From a virus: DNA of 20,885 nucleotides. The notes below the pieces were generated by a model. That model saw nothing but the letters and a program-made list of their open reading frames with translations. It made no database searches and had not been told where the DNA came from. Below are positions 273 through 16,924 of this stretch, in pieces. The translations under genes and the position numbers were made by a program. Every line of letters begins with the position of its first letter. Position 1 is the stretch's first letter. The DNA lies in the IMG/VR virus record IMGVR_UViG_3300036806_000113, positions 1 through 20,885 of that record; one strand, 5' to 3'.

Positions 273-1457
273 ATGGCACGATACGGAAACAGGCGAGTCG
301 CGCTACTGCGCTCGGTAAAACTTGAAGGCTCGTGGCGGATGTGCGTCCCGGTCGTGGACGCGAAAGGCCGCGTAAGCCCCGAGTTAGTAAAGGTGAAGGG
401 GAAGCGGCTGACTGTGTCACCAGACACCCCGAGCCGCTGGTACCTTTCGTGGTATGAGGCTGGTCGGAAGAAGTGGCAGAAGGTCTCAGGCGCAAGTCTG
501 AGCGACGCTATAAACGAGCGTACCCGCAAAGAGGCTGCCCTGGTCTCGCGTATGGACGGAACTCCGCTGCCGAACTTCGCGAAGCCGGAGCGTCGGACGG
601 TACAGGACTTCACCGACCAGTTCTTGGTGGACTTAAAACTGACAACTCCCTCTGCGGACGGACTGGCTCTGTACAACGCTGTGATTGAAACTTTCCTAAA
701 GGTGACTCCCACCTTTCCGGAAGAGATCACCGTGACCGACGTGCTGCGCTTCGTCAATGCCTGCCGTAAGCAAGGCCTGTCGGACAGGACTGTTTACAAC
801 CGCTATGTGGCTTTGGGAACGGTGCTTCGTGCAGCCGGAGTTGACCTGAAGAAACTGGTGCCGAAGAGACAGCAACCCACCTTTACCACTGAGGAGCCGG
901 AGCCGTACACCCAAGAGGAAATGGGAGCGTTCTTCAAGGTGGTGGACGATCCTTATTACAGGCTGGTGTTTGAGACGCTGCTCAAGACCGGGATGCGCTA
1001 CCGGGAACTGAACCACTTGGAGTGGAAGGACGTGAACTTGGACGCCAAGACGTTCCGCATAGGCGAGAAAGTGGAGTTGGGCTTCCGGCCTAAGAAGCGG
1101 AAGGGCAGGACGGTCAGCCTCGTGGACGACCTCTGCGTGAAACTCAAGGCGTGGCGGGAACAGAACCCGAAGACACGGTTCGTGTTTGGTACTTCAAACG
1201 ACAAGCCGGACAATCACTGGCTGGAGGCCGTGAAGAAGTACGCGGAGAAGGCCGGGTTCGATCCAGAAGGTTGGAGGCTCCACCGTTTCCGTGCCACTTA
1301 CTGCACATGGGCACTGGAGAGCGGAATGAGCTTGGTCACGCTGATGTCCCAGACAGGACACACGGACTTGAAATCGGTGATGCGCTATTTGAAAGGTGCG
1401 CAGAAGGACAAGGTGCAGCAGCAGTTGAACTCGGTGTTTTCGAAGGCTAAGATTTAA
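273..1457 (+). CDS. int: Tyrosine site-specific integrase
   Basis: This 394-residue phage integrase catalyses recombination between attP and the tRNA-Leu attB site. The C-terminal catalytic domain shows R242 in a GMRYRELNHLEW block, lysines in the RPKKRKG hairpin near 272-277, H337 and R340 in LHRFR, H363 in TGH, and the nucleophile Y372 in MRYLKG. Residues about 108-195 form the SAM-like core-binding domain (GLSDRTVYNRY near 168-178). The basic N-terminus probably binds arm sites. The ATG at 273 has a near-perfect Shine-Dalgarno sequence, GGAGGAG, at 261-267. Length and motifs are complete, so the gene looks functional. It is transcribed away from the tRNA and converges with the minus-strand accessory and late genes. 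Confidence 0.95.
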   Translation: MARYGNRRVALLRSVKLEGSWRMCVPVVDAKGRVSPELVKVKGKRLTVSPDTPSRWYLSWYEAGRKKWQKVSGASLSDAINERTRKEAALVSRMDGTPLPNFAKPERRTVQDFTDQFLVDLKLTTPSADGLALYNAVIETFLKVTPTFPEEITVTDVLRFVNACRKQGLSDRTVYNRYVALGTVLRAAGVDLKKLVPKRQQPTFTTEEPEPYTQEEMGAFFKVVDDPYYRLVFETLLKTGMRYRELNHLEWKDVNLDAKTFRIGEKVELGFRPKKRKGRTVSLVDDLCVKLKAWREQNPKTRFVFGTSNDKPDNHWLEAVKKYAEKAGFDPEGWRLHRFRATYCTWALESGMSLVTLMSQTGHTDLKSVMRYLKGAQKDKVQQQLNSVFSKAKI

Positions 1458-1489
1458 GGGGCTGTCTGGAGTCTTTATGAAACACAGGC

Positions 1490-1990
1490 TTAATCATCAT
1501 CTTCATCTGCTTTTTTGCTAGGGTCTTTGGGCTGATGAGCAGGCTCATCATGCGGGTCACTGCAGCCGATCATTGAGTCTCTTTGCTCGTTTCTGAATGC
1601 ACACGCAATAAACGTTACTGGACCGCCTCTAGTCAAATGCCAGTCATCGTTCGCAATTACTTCAAATGTTACAGGGCCTGATTCATGTGGTTCTGGCTGT
1701 CGCGAACAGGCACGCTTGTTGGTGGCCCTCTGATTGATACAAATTTCGAGGGATACCGGGGTTTTGGAAGGTGAAACTACCAAATCAAAGCTACCGCTAC
1801 CGAATGTCCTAACCTTCTTGGCATGATGCCCAGTCCTAGTCGCCCAATTAGAAAAACTAACTGTGGGTGCAGCGGTTTCGATTTGTTTTTTAGAGAGAAT
1901 ATGATTGATCACGGGTACTGCGATCCCGGCTAATGCGGATATCGCTGCAACCCAAATCGTTGCTTTTGCGGCACCAGAGAGTTTAGCCAT
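1490..1990 (-). CDS. Membrane-anchored protein of unknown function
   Basis: The product has 166 residues. An N-terminal hydrophobic segment at about 10-31 should act as a signal anchor. A soluble region follows with four cysteines (84, 95, 130, 143), which could form disulfides if exported, and a very acidic end (KKADEDDD). I recognise no family. The gene lies alone between the integrase and the NUMOD3-like remnant and is transcribed toward int with only 32 bp between their ends. The start is ATG 1990, but the ribosome site before it is weak (GAACGG). An 8-bp inverted repeat (1995-2002 / 2032-2039) sits just upstream. Position and isolation fit a lysogeny-expressed cargo gene (moron), perhaps acting at the cell envelope. 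That role is inference. Confidence 0.7.
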   Translation of the reverse strand: MAKLSGAAKATIWVAAISALAGIAVPVINHILSKKQIETAAPTVSFSNWATRTGHHAKKVRTFGSGSFDLVVSPSKTPVSLEICINQRATNKRACSRQPEPHESGPVTFEVIANDDWHLTRGGPVTFIACAFRNEQRDSMIGCSDPHDEPAHQPKDPSKKADEDDD

Positions 1991-1994
1991 GACA

Positions 1995-2039
1995 CCGTTC
2001 TTTTCTGCAGCTTGTCGGAACTGCCCAGTTCAAGAACGG
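1995..2039. repeat. Inverted repeat upstream of the 1490-1990 gene
   Basis: CCGTTCTT (1995-2002) and its exact reverse complement AAGAACGG (2032-2039) are separated by 29 bp, immediately before the ATG of the minus-strand gene. It could be an operator or part of the leader. An 8-bp match can also arise by chance. The rest of 1991-2149 shows no gene and no clear sigma-70 promoter. Confidence 0.3.
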
Positions 2040-2149
2040 GAAGAATATACACCCGTACGTGCCGGATGTGCGCAGAAAAGCAAGATTTATCTCAGCTGAT
2101 CTAATTTAGAAATCATTAATGTCGGTAACTTATCTTTGGATATGTCCCT

Positions 2150-2416
2150 TTGCCCACCCATTGCAATGGCCCACACCTGCGGCTCAGCAAAAGAACAGTG
2201 CCTCAAGGATGGGTAACAAGTTTGGCGTGCCAGTCGTGTTCCGTTGAGAAGAGAGCCAAGATCAGAGCGAGCCTCACTGGCGTCAAGCATCCTCCTGAGC
2301 GTGTTGAGAAAAACCAAGCGGCCAGACTCGGTAAGAAATTGACACCGGAGCATCGAGCGAACATTGGTGCAGCGGTGCAAAAATTTAGGGCCACTCTTGC
2401 GGGAGTGGCCCAATAG
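2150..2416 (+). pseudogene. NUMOD3-like homing-endonuclease remnant
   Basis: From about residue 30 the reading frame resembles tandem NUMOD3 modules, the DNA-binding motif attached to GIY-YIG and HNH homing endonucleases: KRAKIRASLTG, then a HPPE helix, then LGKKLTPEHRANIGAA. No catalytic nuclease domain is present. The frame has no ATG: it opens at TTG 2150 just after a stop at 2126, with no ribosome site. A different frame has ATG 2209 (MGNKFG...) and stops at 2247. A +1 shift near there would join it to the NUMOD3 frame, so the gene is probably frameshifted and truncated. Its last codons overlap a minus-strand terminator hairpin. Most likely it is a decayed mobile endonuclease. It may also be an over-read open frame. 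Confidence 0.45.
2379..2411 (-). terminator. Rho-independent terminator ending the 2905-2439 operon
   Basis: On the minus strand, GGGCCACTC (2411-2403) pairs perfectly with GAGTGGCCC (2396-2388) across a 6-nt loop. TAAATTTTTG follows (2387-2378). The nine-pair GC-rich stem plus U-rich tail is a standard intrinsic terminator. It lies 28 bp after the stop of the 66-residue gene. On the plus strand the hairpin is followed by an A-rich stretch, so it works in one direction only. Confidence 0.8.
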
Positions 2417-2438
2417 AAAAAGAAGGCGGAGTGGCTTT

Positions 2439-2639
2439 TTATATGGCTTCTAGCTCCTCCGGCTTCATCCACCAATGCTGAGAGCCGTCCATCTCAAGGT
2501 ATCCATTCCGTTTGACTTTAGCTATGCGCTCTTGGTGCTCGCAACCTTGCCGCCAAAAGCGACACAGTGAACCACGGTATAAATTCTTGCCGTGCTTGTC
2601 CAATCCAATGGGACGTTCCCGAGTTTTGTTCGTTGTCAT
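2439..2639 (-). CDS. Small basic protein, unknown function
   Basis: This 66-residue protein begins at ATG 2639, which overlaps the stop of the preceding gene as ATGA, so the two are translationally coupled. A longer upstream extension of the frame overlaps the previous gene and has no better start. The protein is rich in Lys, Arg and aromatic residues, with two cysteines and a QHWW motif near the end, and has no membrane segment. I do not recognise a family. Coupling to a probable DNA-binding protein suggests a shared regulatory or recombination role, which is inference. The operon ends at the terminator at 2379-2411. Confidence 0.65.
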   Translation of the reverse strand: MTTNKTRERPIGLDKHGKNLYRGSLCRFWRQGCEHQERIAKVKRNGYLEMDGSQHWWMKPEELEAI

Positions 2640-2905
2640 GCGGCCCTCCGGGTTGCGACCGACGCTGCCGTTTTGACGATCTTCGGGAACTTTCCAACCG
2701 CCTTGAGGTATCTCCTGACCACGCTCACACGAGCGTACACGGTGTGCTTGCTCAATCCCTTTGCCTTCAGAGCCTTCTTGTAGCTGGCCAGTGAGGTGTA
2801 CCCGGCAAACGCTTCCAGCACCCATTTATGCAACCACGCCACGCGGGGTTTCTTCGCATACTTCTTCTCGATCTGCTTGATGTAAGTTTCCATTGCCTTC
2901 GTCAT
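2636..2905 (-). CDS. Stand-alone SAM-like (integrase core-binding) domain protein
   Basis: The product is 89 residues, strongly basic. Residues about 45-75 (ALKAKGLSKHTVYARVSVV and the following RRYLKAVG) align by eye with residues 163-190 of the integrase encoded at 273-1457 (ACRKQGLSDRTVYNRY...LRAAGV): GLS, TVY, R and L.A.G are in register. This is the helical core-binding fold of tyrosine recombinases, but no catalytic domain follows. The ATG at 2905 has a strong Shine-Dalgarno (AAAAAGGAG, 10 nt spacing). A later in-frame ATG at 2893 is less well placed. The conserved two-box element at 2961-3000 lies 55 nt upstream. It may bind att or regulatory DNA, or modulate the integrase. It could also be a degenerate integrase N-terminal piece. 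Confidence 0.7.
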   Translation of the reverse strand: MTKAMETYIKQIEKKYAKKPRVAWLHKWVLEAFAGYTSLASYKKALKAKGLSKHTVYARVSVVRRYLKAVGKFPKIVKTAASVATRRAA

Positions 2906-2960
2906 TTTCTTCTGTCTCCTTTTTGTCTTCGAGCGACTTCAGCCGCTGGTTCAGACACAG

Positions 2961-3000
2961 GAGTTATGTCCCGAGTGGTAACAAATTTCACGAACTTTAT
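2961..3000 (-). promoter_or_regulatory. Two-box element, copy A (upstream of 2905 operon)
   Basis: Read on the minus strand, box 1 ATAAAGTTCGTG (3000-2989), 16 variable bases, then box 2 GGGACATAACTC (2972-2961). Both 12-bp boxes and the spacing are identical to copy B at 3735-3774, which faces the other way. It lies 55 nt before the start of the 89-residue protein gene. Conserved boxes with a non-conserved spacer of fixed length suggest a promoter or a two-site regulator target. It does not fit sigma-70 -35/-10 spacing well. The remainder of 2906-3068 shows no gene. Confidence 0.65.
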
Positions 3001-3068
3001 TAGGTGTAGATCGTGTGGGATAGGGCTGTTAAGTCCCAGGCATCGTGCAGAATCATAGCCGGAAGGCC

Positions 3069-3302
3069 TCAGCCCTTGGCAGCATCGTCGGTTGCAGGAA
3101 TTGGGTCAGCGGGAGCCTTGGCAGCGAAGTAATCCTCTTTGACCGAGTGGCCAACCACGATGGCCATGAACGCTGTCATGAAAGCAACGTAGTTGCCATC
3201 CAGCTTTCCGAGAATGTGAAACACGTGGCCGCCGATGAAGAAAGCAATCAGGAAGGAAGTTGTCCGGCCCGTGAGTTTGGCAAAGATTTTGTCGAGCAGC
3301 AT
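3069..3302 (-). CDS. Holin-like small membrane protein
   Basis: The 77-residue protein starts at ATG 3302, which overlaps the previous gene's stop as TAATG. A longer reading of the frame would run into that gene and is rejected. Two hydrophobic segments (about 14-31 and 37-51) are joined by a short turn with Lys and Asp, and a hydrophilic Ala/Pro/Asp-rich tail follows. Size, topology and position beside the distal tail genes fit a class II-type holin, which permeabilises the inner membrane at lysis. No endolysin is seen in the window, so the assignment rests on topology only. Another small membrane protein function is possible. Confidence 0.55.
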   Translation of the reverse strand: MLLDKIFAKLTGRTTSFLIAFFIGGHVFHILGKLDGNYVAFMTAFMAIVVGHSVKEDYFAAKAPADPIPATDDAAKG

Positions 3303-3652
3303 TACTGCTTCTCCACGAACTTCTCCACCGCACCCACCCTGGCGTCGAACTCCACGCGGGTGACAAAGCTCGACATTTGCTCCTTGATGTATTTCACCGT
3401 GATGCACAACTCGTCCAGCTTATCCAGCTTGTTGAGTTTGTGGCGGACATCCTCAATGATCGAGTTGTGGAGCAGGTAATCTTTCTCCAACTGGTTTACT
3501 CGTTTCGACAGCTCGCCATTGCTGACTTTCAGAGCAGCAACGTCAGCGTTGCGTTTAGAAATGATGGCTGCTTGGCGTGTGAGCCAGCCAATGGCTCCAG
3601 AGTGGATAACACCTGACGCGACGGCCAGGACAGTAACAGTGTCAACGTTCAT
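3302..3652 (-). CDS. Membrane-anchored coiled-coil protein, possible lysis accessory
   Basis: The product has 116 residues. A hydrophobic N-terminal segment (about 5-24) is followed by a long charged helical region (about 30-100) with heptad-like Leu/Val spacing (ELSKRVNQLEKDYLL, KLNKLDKLDEL). This is the shape of inner-membrane spanins (Rz type) or holin-associated proteins, and it is coupled to the holin-like gene by a TAATG overlap. No lipoprotein partner gene (Rz1) was found in an alternative frame. The start at ATG 3652 has no good ribosome site. Function is inferred from architecture only. Confidence 0.6.
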   Translation of the reverse strand: MNVDTVTVLAVASGVIHSGAIGWLTRQAAIISKRNADVAALKVSNGELSKRVNQLEKDYLLHNSIIEDVRHKLNKLDKLDELCITVKYIKEQMSSFVTRVEFDARVGAVEKFVEKQ

Positions 3653-3695
3653 AGCGGGAAGCAGCCTCTATTAAGAGGTCGCGTAGTTAGGAAAC

Positions 3696-3718
3696 TCAGC
3701 TGTTATCACCGTAGCTGA
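3696..3718. repeat. Short inverted repeat in the 3653-3819 gap
   Basis: TCAGCT (3696-3701) and AGCTGA (3713-3718) flank an 11-nt loop. A second small hairpin, CCTCT/AGAGG, lies at about 3665-3678. Both lie in the divergent gap between the coiled-coil gene (minus) and the secreted-protein gene (plus). Possible operator or transcript structure, with little support. Confidence 0.3.
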
Positions 3719-3734
3719 TAGAAGAGAAAGCTCC

Positions 3735-3774
3735 ATAAAGTTCGTGTCGAACTTATTCGAGTGGGACATAACTC
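3735..3774 (+). promoter_or_regulatory. Two-box element, copy B (upstream of 3820 gene)
   Basis: Box 1 ATAAAGTTCGTG (3735-3746), 16 variable bases, box 2 GGGACATAACTC (3763-3774), 45 nt before ATG 3820. It is identical in both boxes and in spacing to copy A on the other strand. The ten bases after box 2 are partly alike too (TTGTACTTGA here, CTGTGTCTGA in A). In this copy only, box 1 is part of a perfect 17-bp dyad, AAGTTCG-TGT-CGAACTT (3738-3754), which looks like an added operator. Probably the promoter or control site of the plus-strand gene. Confidence 0.65.
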
Positions 3775-3819
3775 TTGTACTTGAGAGTTGCTGCTTTGAC
3801 TTTCTAAGTAAGGAGAGTT

Positions 3820-4260
3820 ATGAAACAACTGGCCGTAATGATTTTGGCCCTGGCACCCATGCTTGCTGTGGCTCAGCTACCCGATGCACCCAAACCAAAA
3901 GCCGAGCATCACTTCTTCGATAAGACTAACGTCAGCCTCATGGCTCTTAGCTCGGCTGCAATCGCGTCTGACGGTTGGACGACTCGCCAGAACAACGCAG
4001 ACGGCTTCAGCGAAATCAACCCGGTTGCTCGCCCGTTCGTTCGGTCAAATGCGAAAACTGCGCTGTACTTTGGAGGAGCGCAAGCAGCAGTGGTTGGCGG
4101 AATGTATCTGCTGCATCGGACGAACCATCACAAGCTGGAGCGCATTCTGCCTCTCGCAATATCCGGCGTTGAAGGTTTCTGGACGGTTCACAACACCGGG
4201 TTAAGACATCCAGTAATCGCATCTATTCCTGACACCACCAATCAGGTGACCCGGCGATAG
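3820..4260 (+). CDS. Secreted or membrane protein, accessory cargo
   Basis: The product has 146 residues. It has a clear signal peptide (about 1-18, cleavage after AVA), then a Pro-rich LPDAPKPK stretch, a weakly hydrophobic stretch (36-50), an E-x-NP motif (SEINPVARP, 65-72), a hydrophobic segment (about 79-99) and another near 109-122 after HRTNHHKLER. The layout resembles small DUF5658-like or acidobacterial envelope proteins. It has a strong Shine-Dalgarno AAGGAGAG just before ATG 3820, its own upstream element, and reads against the surrounding late genes. That is the pattern of a moron expressed from the prophage. Its function is unknown. Changes to the host envelope, for example to block superinfection, are speculation. 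Confidence 0.75.
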   Translation: MKQLAVMILALAPMLAVAQLPDAPKPKAEHHFFDKTNVSLMALSSAAIASDGWTTRQNNADGFSEINPVARPFVRSNAKTALYFGGAQAAVVGGMYLLHRTNHHKLERILPLAISGVEGFWTVHNTGLRHPVIASIPDTTNQVTRR

Positions 4261-4267
4261 CTTTTCT

Positions 4268-5305
4268 TCAATTTATCCAAACCACCACGGGCATGCGGCT
4301 GCGGACTTCCACGCTGACGGTGCCCAAGTGTGTGATGCTGGAAACTCCCGATGGGACTGCGAATAGCTTGTCGGTGACTTGTCCAAGTGAGGCCGTGGCG
4401 TGCAGACCTGATACGCTGACCACGGCGTCGATTCTCACAAAGCCAAGGGAAGCAGTAGAAGCCAGTCCAACAACATTGATGTTAGCCGTGCCGTTTGTGG
4501 TGACGCTTCCGATTGATCCTGACGCGCTGACGCCCGACACAGGCACGGATATTGTCGCGATGGCCGAACCTAAATGTGTGGTGGAACTGACACCTGTTAC
4601 TGCAACCGTAGCGGTACCAGTGAAGGTCGCAGTACCCAGGCTTGCAGTCGAGGAGAAGCCGACAACGGTCTTTGAAATAGCGGGCACGACCGTGCCGACT
4701 GCTCCTGTTGCGCTAACTCCAGTGACTGCTTTGACAGCAGTGCCAGATGCTGCCGCCGTTCCGATGGAACCTGTTGCTGAAACTCCAGTGGCATTGACGT
4801 TTGCATCAGCGTTGTAGTTTACGGTGACGCGCATCCAGTCCACGCTAACTGTCCCAGGGCCGCCTGCTGTGGATTGGAAAGAAATGTTCCCTACGAAGCT
4901 CCCGGCATTGACCTGCGCTGGAGTCCATGTAGTCCCCCAAAGGTCAGTAGGCCCACCAAAGGTAAAAGTGCTCGCGGTATTCGCAAGCGCACCAGCAGCC
5001 CTATTGGCACTTGCTCCTCCACCACCTTCCATCACTACAGTGTGAAACGCTTCGATGCCATTTACAAATGCATTGCCATTTACTTCGAGCGTGATGCCGA
5101 CAATTGTGGCAGTCGAAGGGATGCTGAAATTGAATACGCCGCCACGGAGATCGTCCGTGATCGCGACGCCAGGAAGACAAGTAGCAGTGCTTCCGTCGTT
5201 CGCTTCGATATTTGTCGGGTTTGTCCACGCAACAGTGCCGCCACCAATCGTGTTGGTAGAGCCGGTAGCTGCTGTCGGGAAATTTGGCCCCTGTGTCAGA
5301 GACAT
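4268..5305 (-). CDS. Distal repeat fibre protein (20-22-residue repeats)
   Basis: The product has 345 residues. Residues 1-165 form a beta-rich domain of a kind seen in phage and exported proteins (W.NP.N...DG.TAT near 26-43, LWGTTWTPAQVN near 122-133, VSVDWMRVTVNY near 153-164). Residues about 166-333 are eight repeats of 20 or 22 residues with the core GVSSTASLGT, followed by a short tail. The gene at 15557-16924 uses the same repeat. It starts at ATG 5305 after an AAAGGA ribosome site and lies immediately downstream of a terminator, so its expression may depend on readthrough. Position after the tail-tip genes suggests a surface-exposed tail appendage or decoration. Receptor binding is inference. 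Confidence 0.8.
   Translation of the reverse strand: MSLTQGPNFPTAATGSTNTIGGGTVAWTNPTNIEANDGSTATCLPGVAITDDLRGGVFNFSIPSTATIVGITLEVNGNAFVNGIEAFHTVVMEGGGGASANRAAGALANTASTFTFGGPTDLWGTTWTPAQVNAGSFVGNISFQSTAGGPGTVSVDWMRVTVNYNADANVNATGVSATGSIGTAAASGTAVKAVTGVSATGAVGTVVPAISKTVVGFSSTASLGTATFTGTATVAVTGVSSTTHLGSAIATISVPVSGVSASGSIGSVTTNGTANINVVGLASTASLGFVRIDAVVSVSGLHATASLGQVTDKLFAVPSGVSSITHLGTVSVEVRSRMPVVVWIN
4307..4810 (-). repeat. Coding repeat array, eight 60/66-bp units
   Basis: Eight units of 20 or 22 codons encode residues about 166-333 of the fibre protein. Each carries a G-V/F/L-S-S/A-T-A-S-L/I/V-G core flanked by alternating hydrophobic and small residues, consistent with repeated beta hairpins. 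Units have diverged at the DNA level, so recent slippage is not evident. Confidence 0.8.
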
Positions 5306-5322
5306 GCGCCCATTCCTTTATC

Positions 5323-5356
5323 AAAAAGGGGACGAACGCAGTTAACGCTCGTCCCC
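5323..5356 (-). terminator. Intrinsic terminator between two fibre genes
   Basis: On the minus strand, GGGGACGA (5356-5349) pairs with TCGTCCCC (5335-5328), with extra pairing possible inside the loop (GCG/CGT). TTTTT follows at 5327-5323. It lies 22 bp after the stop of the 5378-5839 gene and 18 bp before the start of the repeat fibre gene. It would end or sharply reduce transcription of the late operon before the last fibre gene unless an antiterminator acts. Confidence 0.85.
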
Positions 5357-5377
5357 CAAGAGGCACCAAAAACTCAA

Positions 5378-5839
5378 TTAGGCGAGACGGATGATCGCAT
5401 TGGATGCGTCAGCAGTCGGCAGGGTGATGGTGAAAGTTCCGGACGTGTCAGTGATCGTTCCACCAAAGCTGATTACAGCCACTGCCTTATTGCCTTGGGT
5501 GCTGTTATAAATCACGGCCCCAATCGCTGAAATCGAGGAAGCCGCCCAAGATGGGTCAGTCGTCCAGTCGATCCACGCGGTAGTTCCAGATGAGCTGGTA
5601 GTAAATCCGCTCATTGCGACACCACCAGTCGTGTACCCTGTGCCAGAGGCTTCGTCTGTGCCGACGTTAGCCGTAGTAGGGGAGCCTGTACCCGGTGTGC
5701 CAACGTTCGTCACAGCGGCATCGTAGGTGCCTGTGGCCCCGACTTTGAGCAAGAGGATTTTGTAGGTGTCTGAGGAAAGATGGACACCGCTGAGCAGTTC
5801 TTTCTTGTATGACGTGCAGAGTGCTGATGTTACGGACAT
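5378..5839 (-). CDS. Phage tail-fibre-associated protein, hypothetical
   Basis: The 153-residue protein opens with SALCTSYKKELLSGVHLSSDTYKI, continues into a Thr/Ser/Gly-rich middle, and ends with a beta-rich part (AVAVISFGGTITDTSGTFTITLP). Proteins of this pattern (short helix, then a GVH...DTYKI-type strand) are common among distal tail and appendage genes of siphoviruses and have no assigned activity. A strong Shine-Dalgarno (AAGGAGACATAAAAT before ATG 5839) suggests high expression. It is the last gene before the terminator at 5323-5356. Probably structural, exact position in the virion unknown. Confidence 0.65.
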   Translation of the reverse strand: MSVTSALCTSYKKELLSGVHLSSDTYKILLLKVGATGTYDAAVTNVGTPGTGSPTTANVGTDEASGTGYTTGGVAMSGFTTSSSGTTAWIDWTTDPSWAASSISAIGAVIYNSTQGNKAVAVISFGGTITDTSGTFTITLPTADASNAIIRLA

Positions 5840-15556: not shown

Positions 15557-16924
15557 CTAGACGCCAATGATGGAGAGGGTGGGCTTGCGTCGAAAATTGC
15601 TAATGGTCGAAAGAGATACGGTGCCAAGCGTAAGGATCAGTTGCTGCCCCGTTGCAGTGAAAACTGCACTACCGCTGGGAAACACTGATCCAAGTGAAGC
15701 TATGGGTGAGAAACCTGTAGCAGCGATTGAGGCGAAGGCAGAATATACCGGCACCCCAAGTCCGAACATGGCTGATATGCCAAGGATGGCGATGGACGCG
15801 CTACCTGAAACAGTTGCCGAACCAACAGAAGCGGTTGCTGCCACGCCTGCGGGACTTATATTTCCATCAGCCGCTACAAAAACAGTGCCTAAGTTTGCAG
15901 TTGCACTCGAACCAGTTATAGACACATTAGCTGTGCCCGAGGCGTTAATTGCTCCTTCTATTGTGCTTGCGCTAATTCCGACGACAGATACGTTAGCAGC
16001 GCCTGAAACAGATGTTGTGCCAAGGGCAGAGCTTGAAACAACACCCGTGACGGAAACAACGGCAGTGCCTGTAAGCGTAAGAGTGCCGAGGGCTGCTGTT
16101 GAGCTAATCCCCGTTGCTGCGAATACTGCCCCGCCAGTGGTCAAGGGGCTGCCAATTGATGCGGTGGAGCTAACACCATTTGGTGAAACATTTGCAGTAC
16201 CGCTGGCTGCTGCTGTGCCTAGTGACGCCGTGGATGATACGCCAGCCGGGGATACATTGGAGTTTCCGCTGATCGAAAATGCCATTGAAGCCGCATTCCA
16301 TCCTGTATTCGCGGAGCTAGAGACAGTCCAGTTGACCGCAGTAGCAGCGGATACGGATAGCTGGTAAGCATCAGCCGAGTTGTTCGCATCGCTATTGATC
16401 GTGCCACGAGTGCCTTCCACCCAAGACCCGCCAACCGCGCTGATTGTGCCAGCCGATGCCGGGTCAGAGATCCCAGCCGCATAAATCAATTCTGCCGCGT
16501 TAGTCGGGGTTAGCGAAGGCGTGTTGATCGGCGTTGTGCCAGTTGACGGGCCAGAGTTGGCTGTCTTATCCAAGCTGCACGTGCCGGTGTAACTGAACTC
16601 AATAGCGTGTATGGACAATCCATGAGCTACTGAGGGAGTGGCCGTTATGGTCATCGACCCGCTGGCAGCGGACAGGATGTACCCAAGCCAGATGTACCGT
16701 GCTCCGCCACTGTATGCAAATGGGGAACCAGTTGGCTGTGTGAATGTGTGGCCGTTCCCGTCTGTTATCGTTAGGGTAAATCCGGTTGATGAGCCCAGGT
16801 AGCAGACAGCGACAACGACGAGATGCCCTGCAACCACACTGGGCAAGGACAAGGTTGTCGTTGCAGGTGATGGAGTAGTTCCAGCCGATGAGTTCCAGGC
16901 TTTCTGTACGAAAGTGAACGCCAT
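15557..16924 (-). CDS. Repeat-bearing virion surface protein between tail terminator and tube genes
   Basis: The product has 455 residues. Residues 1-219 form a jelly-roll-like beta domain (HLVVVAVCYLGSS, LTITDGNGHTFTQ, SIHAIEFSYTGT) of a kind common in phage and exported proteins. Residues about 220-439 are ten repeats of exactly 22 residues with the core GVSSTASLGT, and a basic tail follows. The fibre gene at 4268-5305 has the same repeat. Neighbours are the tail terminator fusion and the tube protein, so it may decorate the tail shaft or neck. No enzymatic motif. ATG 16924 follows the previous stop by 3 bp with AGGGGC upstream. Confidence 0.8.
   Translation of the reverse strand: MAFTFVQKAWNSSAGTTPSPATTTLSLPSVVAGHLVVVAVCYLGSSTGFTLTITDGNGHTFTQPTGSPFAYSGGARYIWLGYILSAASGSMTITATPSVAHGLSIHAIEFSYTGTCSLDKTANSGPSTGTTPINTPSLTPTNAAELIYAAGISDPASAGTISAVGGSWVEGTRGTINSDANNSADAYQLSVSAATAVNWTVSSSANTGWNAASMAFSISGNSNVSPAGVSSTASLGTAAASGTANVSPNGVSSTASIGSPLTTGGAVFAATGISSTAALGTLTLTGTAVVSVTGVVSSSALGTTSVSGAANVSVVGISASTIEGAINASGTANVSITGSSATANLGTVFVAADGNISPAGVAATASVGSATVSGSASIAILGISAMFGLGVPVYSAFASIAATGFSPIASLGSVFPSGSAVFTATGQQLILTLGTVSLSTISNFRRKPTLSIIGV
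15608..16267 (-). repeat. Coding repeat array, ten 66-bp units
   Basis: Ten consecutive 22-codon units, each in register from a G/A-x-A/S-x-V/I start to a Gly in the LGT core. Length is constant with no indels, unlike the 20/22 mixture in the 4307-4810 array. Sequence divergence between units is high, so the repeats are old. Confidence 0.85.

Follow-up and report, generated by a model that had tools for sequence, protein, structure and literature searches.

An exact two-box element precedes two accessory units in a probable acidobacterial prophage

The stretch of DNA analysed here (the window) is a virus record of 20,885 bases, and is a phage fragment, so other regulators of the same phage would go unseen. 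A tRNA-Leu(CAG) gene (35–121) and an integrase gene (273–1457) are followed by a late module on the minus strand, comprising portal, tail and other genes. Bases 1–34 are identical at 33 of 34 positions to the tRNA flank of an Acidobacteriaceae MAG (L018), which makes a host from that family very probable. The Acidobacteriaceae tRNA-Leu gene also turns up in a MAG labelled Armatimonadetes (L028), where binning contamination is possible. Tail-region proteins encoded at 4268–5305 and 15557–16924 (minus strand) carry short degenerate TGVSSTASLGTA-like repeats, with similar ones in a related prophage (L004, 3376–4533). The locus of interest holds the following features.

2439–2639, minus strand: second small frame of the gene-A unit, 66 aa, its start overlapping the gene A stop
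2636–2905, minus strand: gene A, 89 aa, very basic, predicted stand-alone core-binding (SAM-like) domain of tyrosine recombinases
2906–3063, minus strand: conserved leader of the gene-A unit, with the block CTATGATTCTGCACGAT, a dyad, the two-box element, the hairpin AGCGGCTGAAGTCGCT and the Shine-Dalgarno sequence AAGGAG
3000–2961, minus strand: copy A of the two-box element, ATAAAGTTCGTG (box 1, 3000–2989), N16 (2988–2973) and GGGACATAACTC (box 2, 2972–2961); kept in two related prophages, G001 (L003) and G002 (L004)
2989–3015, minus strand: copy-A dyad CACGANCT-N11-AGNTCGTG, its right arm within box 1; exact, and present once each in the window, G001 and G002
3069–3652, minus strand: two late frames between the copies, perhaps a lysis cassette
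3735–3774, plus strand: copy B of the element, ATAAAGTTCGTG (3735–3746), N16 (3747–3762) and GGGACATAACTC (3763–3774); absent before relatives of the downstream gene B
3738–3754, plus strand: perfect 17-bp dyad private to copy B, AAGTTCG-TGT-CGAACTT (AAGTTCGTGTCGAACTT), overlapping box 1
3820–4260, plus strand: gene B, 146 aa, signal peptide by eye, host-family gene

The pattern ATAAAGTTCGTG-N16-GGGACATAACTC occurs exactly twice in the window, in divergent orientation, with all 24 box bases and the 16-nt gap identical. The preliminary description had reported this arrangement, together with a spacer identity of 2 in 16, distances of 55 nt (copy A) and 45 nt (copy B) to the start codons, and the private dyad of copy B, all of which we recovered. 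Both starts, 45–55 nt after the element ends, are preceded by good Shine-Dalgarno sequences. The pattern appeared in none of 100 dinucleotide-preserving shuffles of the window, and allowing up to three mismatches reveals no third copy there. The flanks of the two copies are identical at near background level, with a slight excess (6 of 10) directly after box 2. Outside the boxes the neighbourhoods of copies A and B are unrelated, and the boxes are what the gene-A and gene-B units have in common.

When 2.9 million viral contigs were scanned, the element turned up in two more acidobacterial prophage records, G001 (39,142 bp) and G002 (28,864 bp), each with a single copy, also when up to three mismatches are allowed. 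Looser patterns with 20 and 18 fixed bases returned no viral contigs beyond these two from the same 2.9 million, and a protein scan of these contigs with gene A, independent of the pattern scans, led to the same pair. Direct att repeats of 24 and 46 bp mark both as complete prophages. DNA similarity between G001 and the window is confined to the integrase region and to 392 bp at gene A and its leader. In G002 the integrase and the tRNA site are different, and what it shares with the window are some structural genes and the gene-A block. Gene A with its leader of about 160 bp (gene A at 2636–2905, minus strand, in the window; 1750–2007 in L003; 2246–2494 in L004) thus accompanies different integrases and, because the block recurs in otherwise different phages, forms a discrete module. 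Elsewhere in G001 (L102, 7354–7989), two consecutive frames contain identical stretches of about 80 residues as a direct repeat.

The two relatives carrying the element allow the boxes to be assessed independently of copy B. Between the window and G002, the more distant of the two, box 1 is unchanged at 12 of 12 positions and box 2 at 11 of 11 (23/23 together), while the N16 spacer is identical at 10 of 16 (62%) and the third codon positions of gene A at 37 of 68 (54%). Since the spacer diverges about as far as third codon positions and the boxes do not, the boxes are under selection and the spacer is nearly free. Selection for two contacts at a fixed spacing, as first proposed from the two copies in the window, is therefore also supported by the comparison with the two relatives. 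The extent of box 2 needs a correction: its 12 bases hold in the window, but the last (C) is T in both relatives, so the conserved part amounts to 12 + 11 bases.

The leader of copy A is conserved throughout, from about 3063 to 2906, and not only in the boxes (88.7% identical between the window and G002), which suggests that several functions overlap there. Copy B lacks the dyad CACGANCT-N11-AGNTCGTG, the upstream block and the leader hairpin of copy A. A search against Rfam gave nothing credible; a match to mir-1175, located on the opposite side of the unit, fell below the gathering score. The sequence GGGACTTAAC (3028–3037, minus strand), one base off the box-2 core, lies 65 nt upstream of copy-A box 2; it is also found in G001 (2139, minus strand) and not in G002.

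Gene A opens a two-gene unit that ends in a terminator-like hairpin (2411–2388) after the second small frame. Its product is strongly basic (pI 10.6, 22 K/R against 3 D/E), and the structure model (pLDDT 79.6) displays a predicted four-helix SAM-like fold. The best structural match is XerA (PDB ID: 5hxy; Z 8.5, r.m.s.d. 2.2 Å over 73 residues), followed by an integrase-like domain and the core-binding domains of Cre and Tn1549 Int. The best 13 matches are all of tyrosine-recombinase type and stand above the remaining ones; these Z-values are modest for helical folds, and the Foldseek result alone is not significant. A single comparison with the phage's own integrase gave 34% identity over 35 residues (E 3e-4). 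No profile matched in Pfam, PHROG or NCBIfam, a sequence search of the PDB found nothing, and no relatives were found in annotated phages or in 398 host-family genomes, a set that holds no positive control. The model thus leads us to describe gene A as a predicted stand-alone core-binding domain of tyrosine recombinases, without the catalytic domain.

Gene B is the lone plus-strand gene here, antisense to the minus-strand late genes, as is typical of morons that carry a promoter of their own (PMC7067206). Homologues are present in 18 of 50 host-family genomes and also in a few phages; in L082 the gene comes after an integrase gene. The element does not accompany them: upstream of the relatives at 11 viral loci no site is better than 8 mismatches, and in loci around 12 host relatives the best has 6 mismatches, within chance. 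As an extra gene with host relatives, lying against the phage operons, gene B is most plausibly a host gene that was captured (a moron) and acquired the site in this phage lineage. A related phage with a gene-B relative (L079) has a different 19-base repeat, CCTAAAAAAGAAATCTTCT, twice, at about 10190 and 10940, possibly an analogous shared site. Of the two late frames between the element copies, that at 3652–3302 is very weakly spanin-like (E about 0.08) and that at 3302–3069 encodes a small membrane-type protein by eye; L004 has a gene pair at the same position without sequence similarity.

The reading we favour, with a probability of roughly 0.58, is that the element is a phage-specific promoter core, used twice, with a shared regulator contact, and that the gene-A product is the leading candidate for the regulator. 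Copy A would drive a self-contained unit, close to the integrase, for a small and basic protein predicted to bind DNA, and copy B would drive the captured host gene, which probably encodes an exported protein and stands alone against the late genes. Counting from a start assumed to lie 7 nt after CATAAC, this hexamer falls at about −12 to −7; box 2, spanning −16 to −5, would provide the −10 region, and box 1 (−44 to −33) would replace the −35 hexamer as the regulator contact. With identical boxes, both units would come under the same control. Against a promoter it can be said that CATAAC is a poor −10 and that no −35 hexamer lies at the usual distance. The geometry of the boxes and the selection on them would fit an activator-dependent phage promoter. 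We infer promoter activity, start sites, the identity of the regulator and the sense of regulation.

The regulator should be phage-encoded, because the hosts lack the site, and would most likely be the gene-A product, since gene A is the one DNA-binding-type gene known beside the site in every genome. Gene A would then regulate itself, and gene B would have been added to its control. The only copy that is not beside gene A, copy B, sits in a genome that possesses gene A; in the relatives, the linkage of element and gene A is partly trivial because the two are adjacent. No known activator gene was found, and the subset of G001 and G002 proteins that was profile-scanned includes no known regulator. 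Core-binding domains alone usually bind DNA weakly. Gene A as the regulator is parsimonious but unproven, and the fuller scenario, in which a stand-alone core-binding domain became a transcription regulator at its own promoter and a captured host gene was placed under the same control through a second site, is tentative and on balance doubtful. In the open-access literature we found no description of an orphan core-binding regulator.

The main rival is a pure operator: both boxes would be bridged or covered by a repressor, such as that of the prophage, and the promoters would be located at other points of the leaders. In its favour, box 1 falls within a dyad in both copies, albeit with different geometry, and the copy-A leader has a further conserved upstream block with a TATGAT hexamer. 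The boxes themselves, 28 bp apart centre to centre, do not clearly repeat each other in either inverted or direct orientation, however; the dyad of copy A differs from that of copy B in spacing and has its arms the opposite way round, and the upstream block has no counterpart at copy B. We consider an operator alone to be possible, though distinctly the minority case.

The preliminary description had offered two possibilities: a promoter recognised by an alternative sigma factor, perhaps one encoded by the phage, or a shared operator that links two cargo units. The best reading is still a promoter or operator common to both units, while the sigma-factor version finds no support. Its starting point holds: two blocks at fixed spacing around a free spacer, before genes, match sigma-70 poorly. 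No conserved hexamer lies 17 bp upstream of CATAAC, as had been observed; of a TATAAT-like −10 and a TTGACA-like −35 with a 16–18-bp spacer only CATAAC is found, and positions 1400–5400 contain no sigma-70-like consensus site. A promoter class served by an alternative sigma factor would be expected to recur before several phage or host genes, and only the window has two copies. The single copies in the complete 39.1-kb and 28.9-kb prophages make a phage-wide sigma-factor promoter unlikely, and no sigma-factor family matched among the subset of G001 and G002 proteins that was profile-scanned; these scans gave one weak Q-antiterminator-like protein (G001) and a ribbon-helix-helix protein (G002). 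On the host side, a 21-base pattern at up to three mismatches gave 9 matches in 398 host-family genomes against 8 for the reversed control, and this lack of excess led us to reject a host regulon. The exact two-box pattern is also absent from 84,980 species genomes, and by these sequence searches the element is phage-specific rather than a host motif. ECF and FliA promoter geometries, compared by eye, have spacings that do not fit the boxes. No description of acidobacterial promoters was found in the open-access literature. An alternative sigma factor, whether host- or phage-encoded, is thus an unlikely explanation.

An exact AAAGTTCGTG without box 2 lies in the leader of early genes in G002 (28447, minus strand; L104 about 8947). 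We rejected it as a further element, since box 2 is missing and G001 does not conserve the sequence. The sequence CGTGTCTTGCAATCAGCCGCT, right after AAAGTTCGTG in G002, is conserved in G001.

The element might instead act mainly in RNA, by analogy with hairpins that hide ribosome-binding sites: box 2 would be the 5′ strand of such a hairpin in read-through RNA, and transcripts beginning just downstream would lack it. In predicted RNAs the stretch −12 to −1 pairs with the ribosome-binding region, and folding predicts for all four leaders that the interval from Shine-Dalgarno to AUG is more open in RNA beginning at the predicted +1. When −12 to −1 was shuffled, the site was equally inaccessible in 2.0% of 400 trials for G001 and in 0% for both G002 and copy B; for copy A of the window, the value was 80%, which is not unusual. 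CATAACTC in copy B is exactly complementary to GAGTTATG, which lies at the start codon. Shuffling the whole of −44 to −1, however, raised the values to 12%, 5.8% and 2.2%, and with a narrower measure the picture was reversed, so the result depends on the measure. A hairpin would also leave box 1 and the GGGA part of box 2 unexplained, and it presupposes a promoter. We regard RNA as the main layer as improbable, and keep the hairpin, as a second layer, as a lead only.

That the copies are inverted recombinase sites, flipping or moving the 0.8-kb segment between them, is suggested by their orientation around presumed lysis genes and by the resemblance of gene A to part of a recombinase; both relatives are single-copy, and one of them has a gene pair in the corresponding position, the boxes do not form inverted repeats flanking a short overlap, and gene A has no catalytic domain, which makes this highly improbable. 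A recent duplication or chance without function would suit the presence of only two copies in the window, yet 24 bases are identical while spacer and flanks are unrelated, and the boxes are conserved between phages, so that this too has very little to recommend it.

Little is known of gene control in acidobacterial prophages. An exact, selected and phage-specific site before two accessory units points to a small regulon whose candidate regulator is encoded beside the site. The element is real, selected, phage-specific and ordinary in kind. It is most likely a promoter or operator that switches the two units together, which would make the arrangement uncommon but understandable; its unusual side is the possible small regulon around an orphan recombinase core-binding domain.

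In layout, the promoter core we favour may be compared with those of T4 MotA, lambda CII and Mu Mor/C, in which the −35 is poor or missing and a conserved block in the −35 region stands at a fixed distance from a −10. To our knowledge, the sequences, length (12 + 11 fixed bases) and spacing of the boxes match no known site of these systems. A Salmonella prophage gene antisense to lytic genes has its own promoter (PMC7067206); here too, small extra genes with their own leaders lie against the late operon or at its end, and gene B belongs to a host gene family. What differs from known morons is that an exact bipartite site is common to two units of a single prophage, the promoter here being predicted. 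T4 gene e has a late promoter within a translation-blocking hairpin (PMC3014915), and by one measure the presumed promoter DNA of three of our four leaders would likewise supply the 5′ strand of a hairpin predicted to cover the ribosome-binding site; in contrast to gene e, the promoter is presumed and the statistics are weak and depend on the measure. Over about 73 residues, the predicted fold of gene A resembles the core-binding domains of XerA, Cre and Tn1549 Int. Unlike these, gene A stands alone, without a catalytic domain and with its own conserved regulatory leader; if it is indeed the regulator, it would show part of an integrase reused for transcription control.
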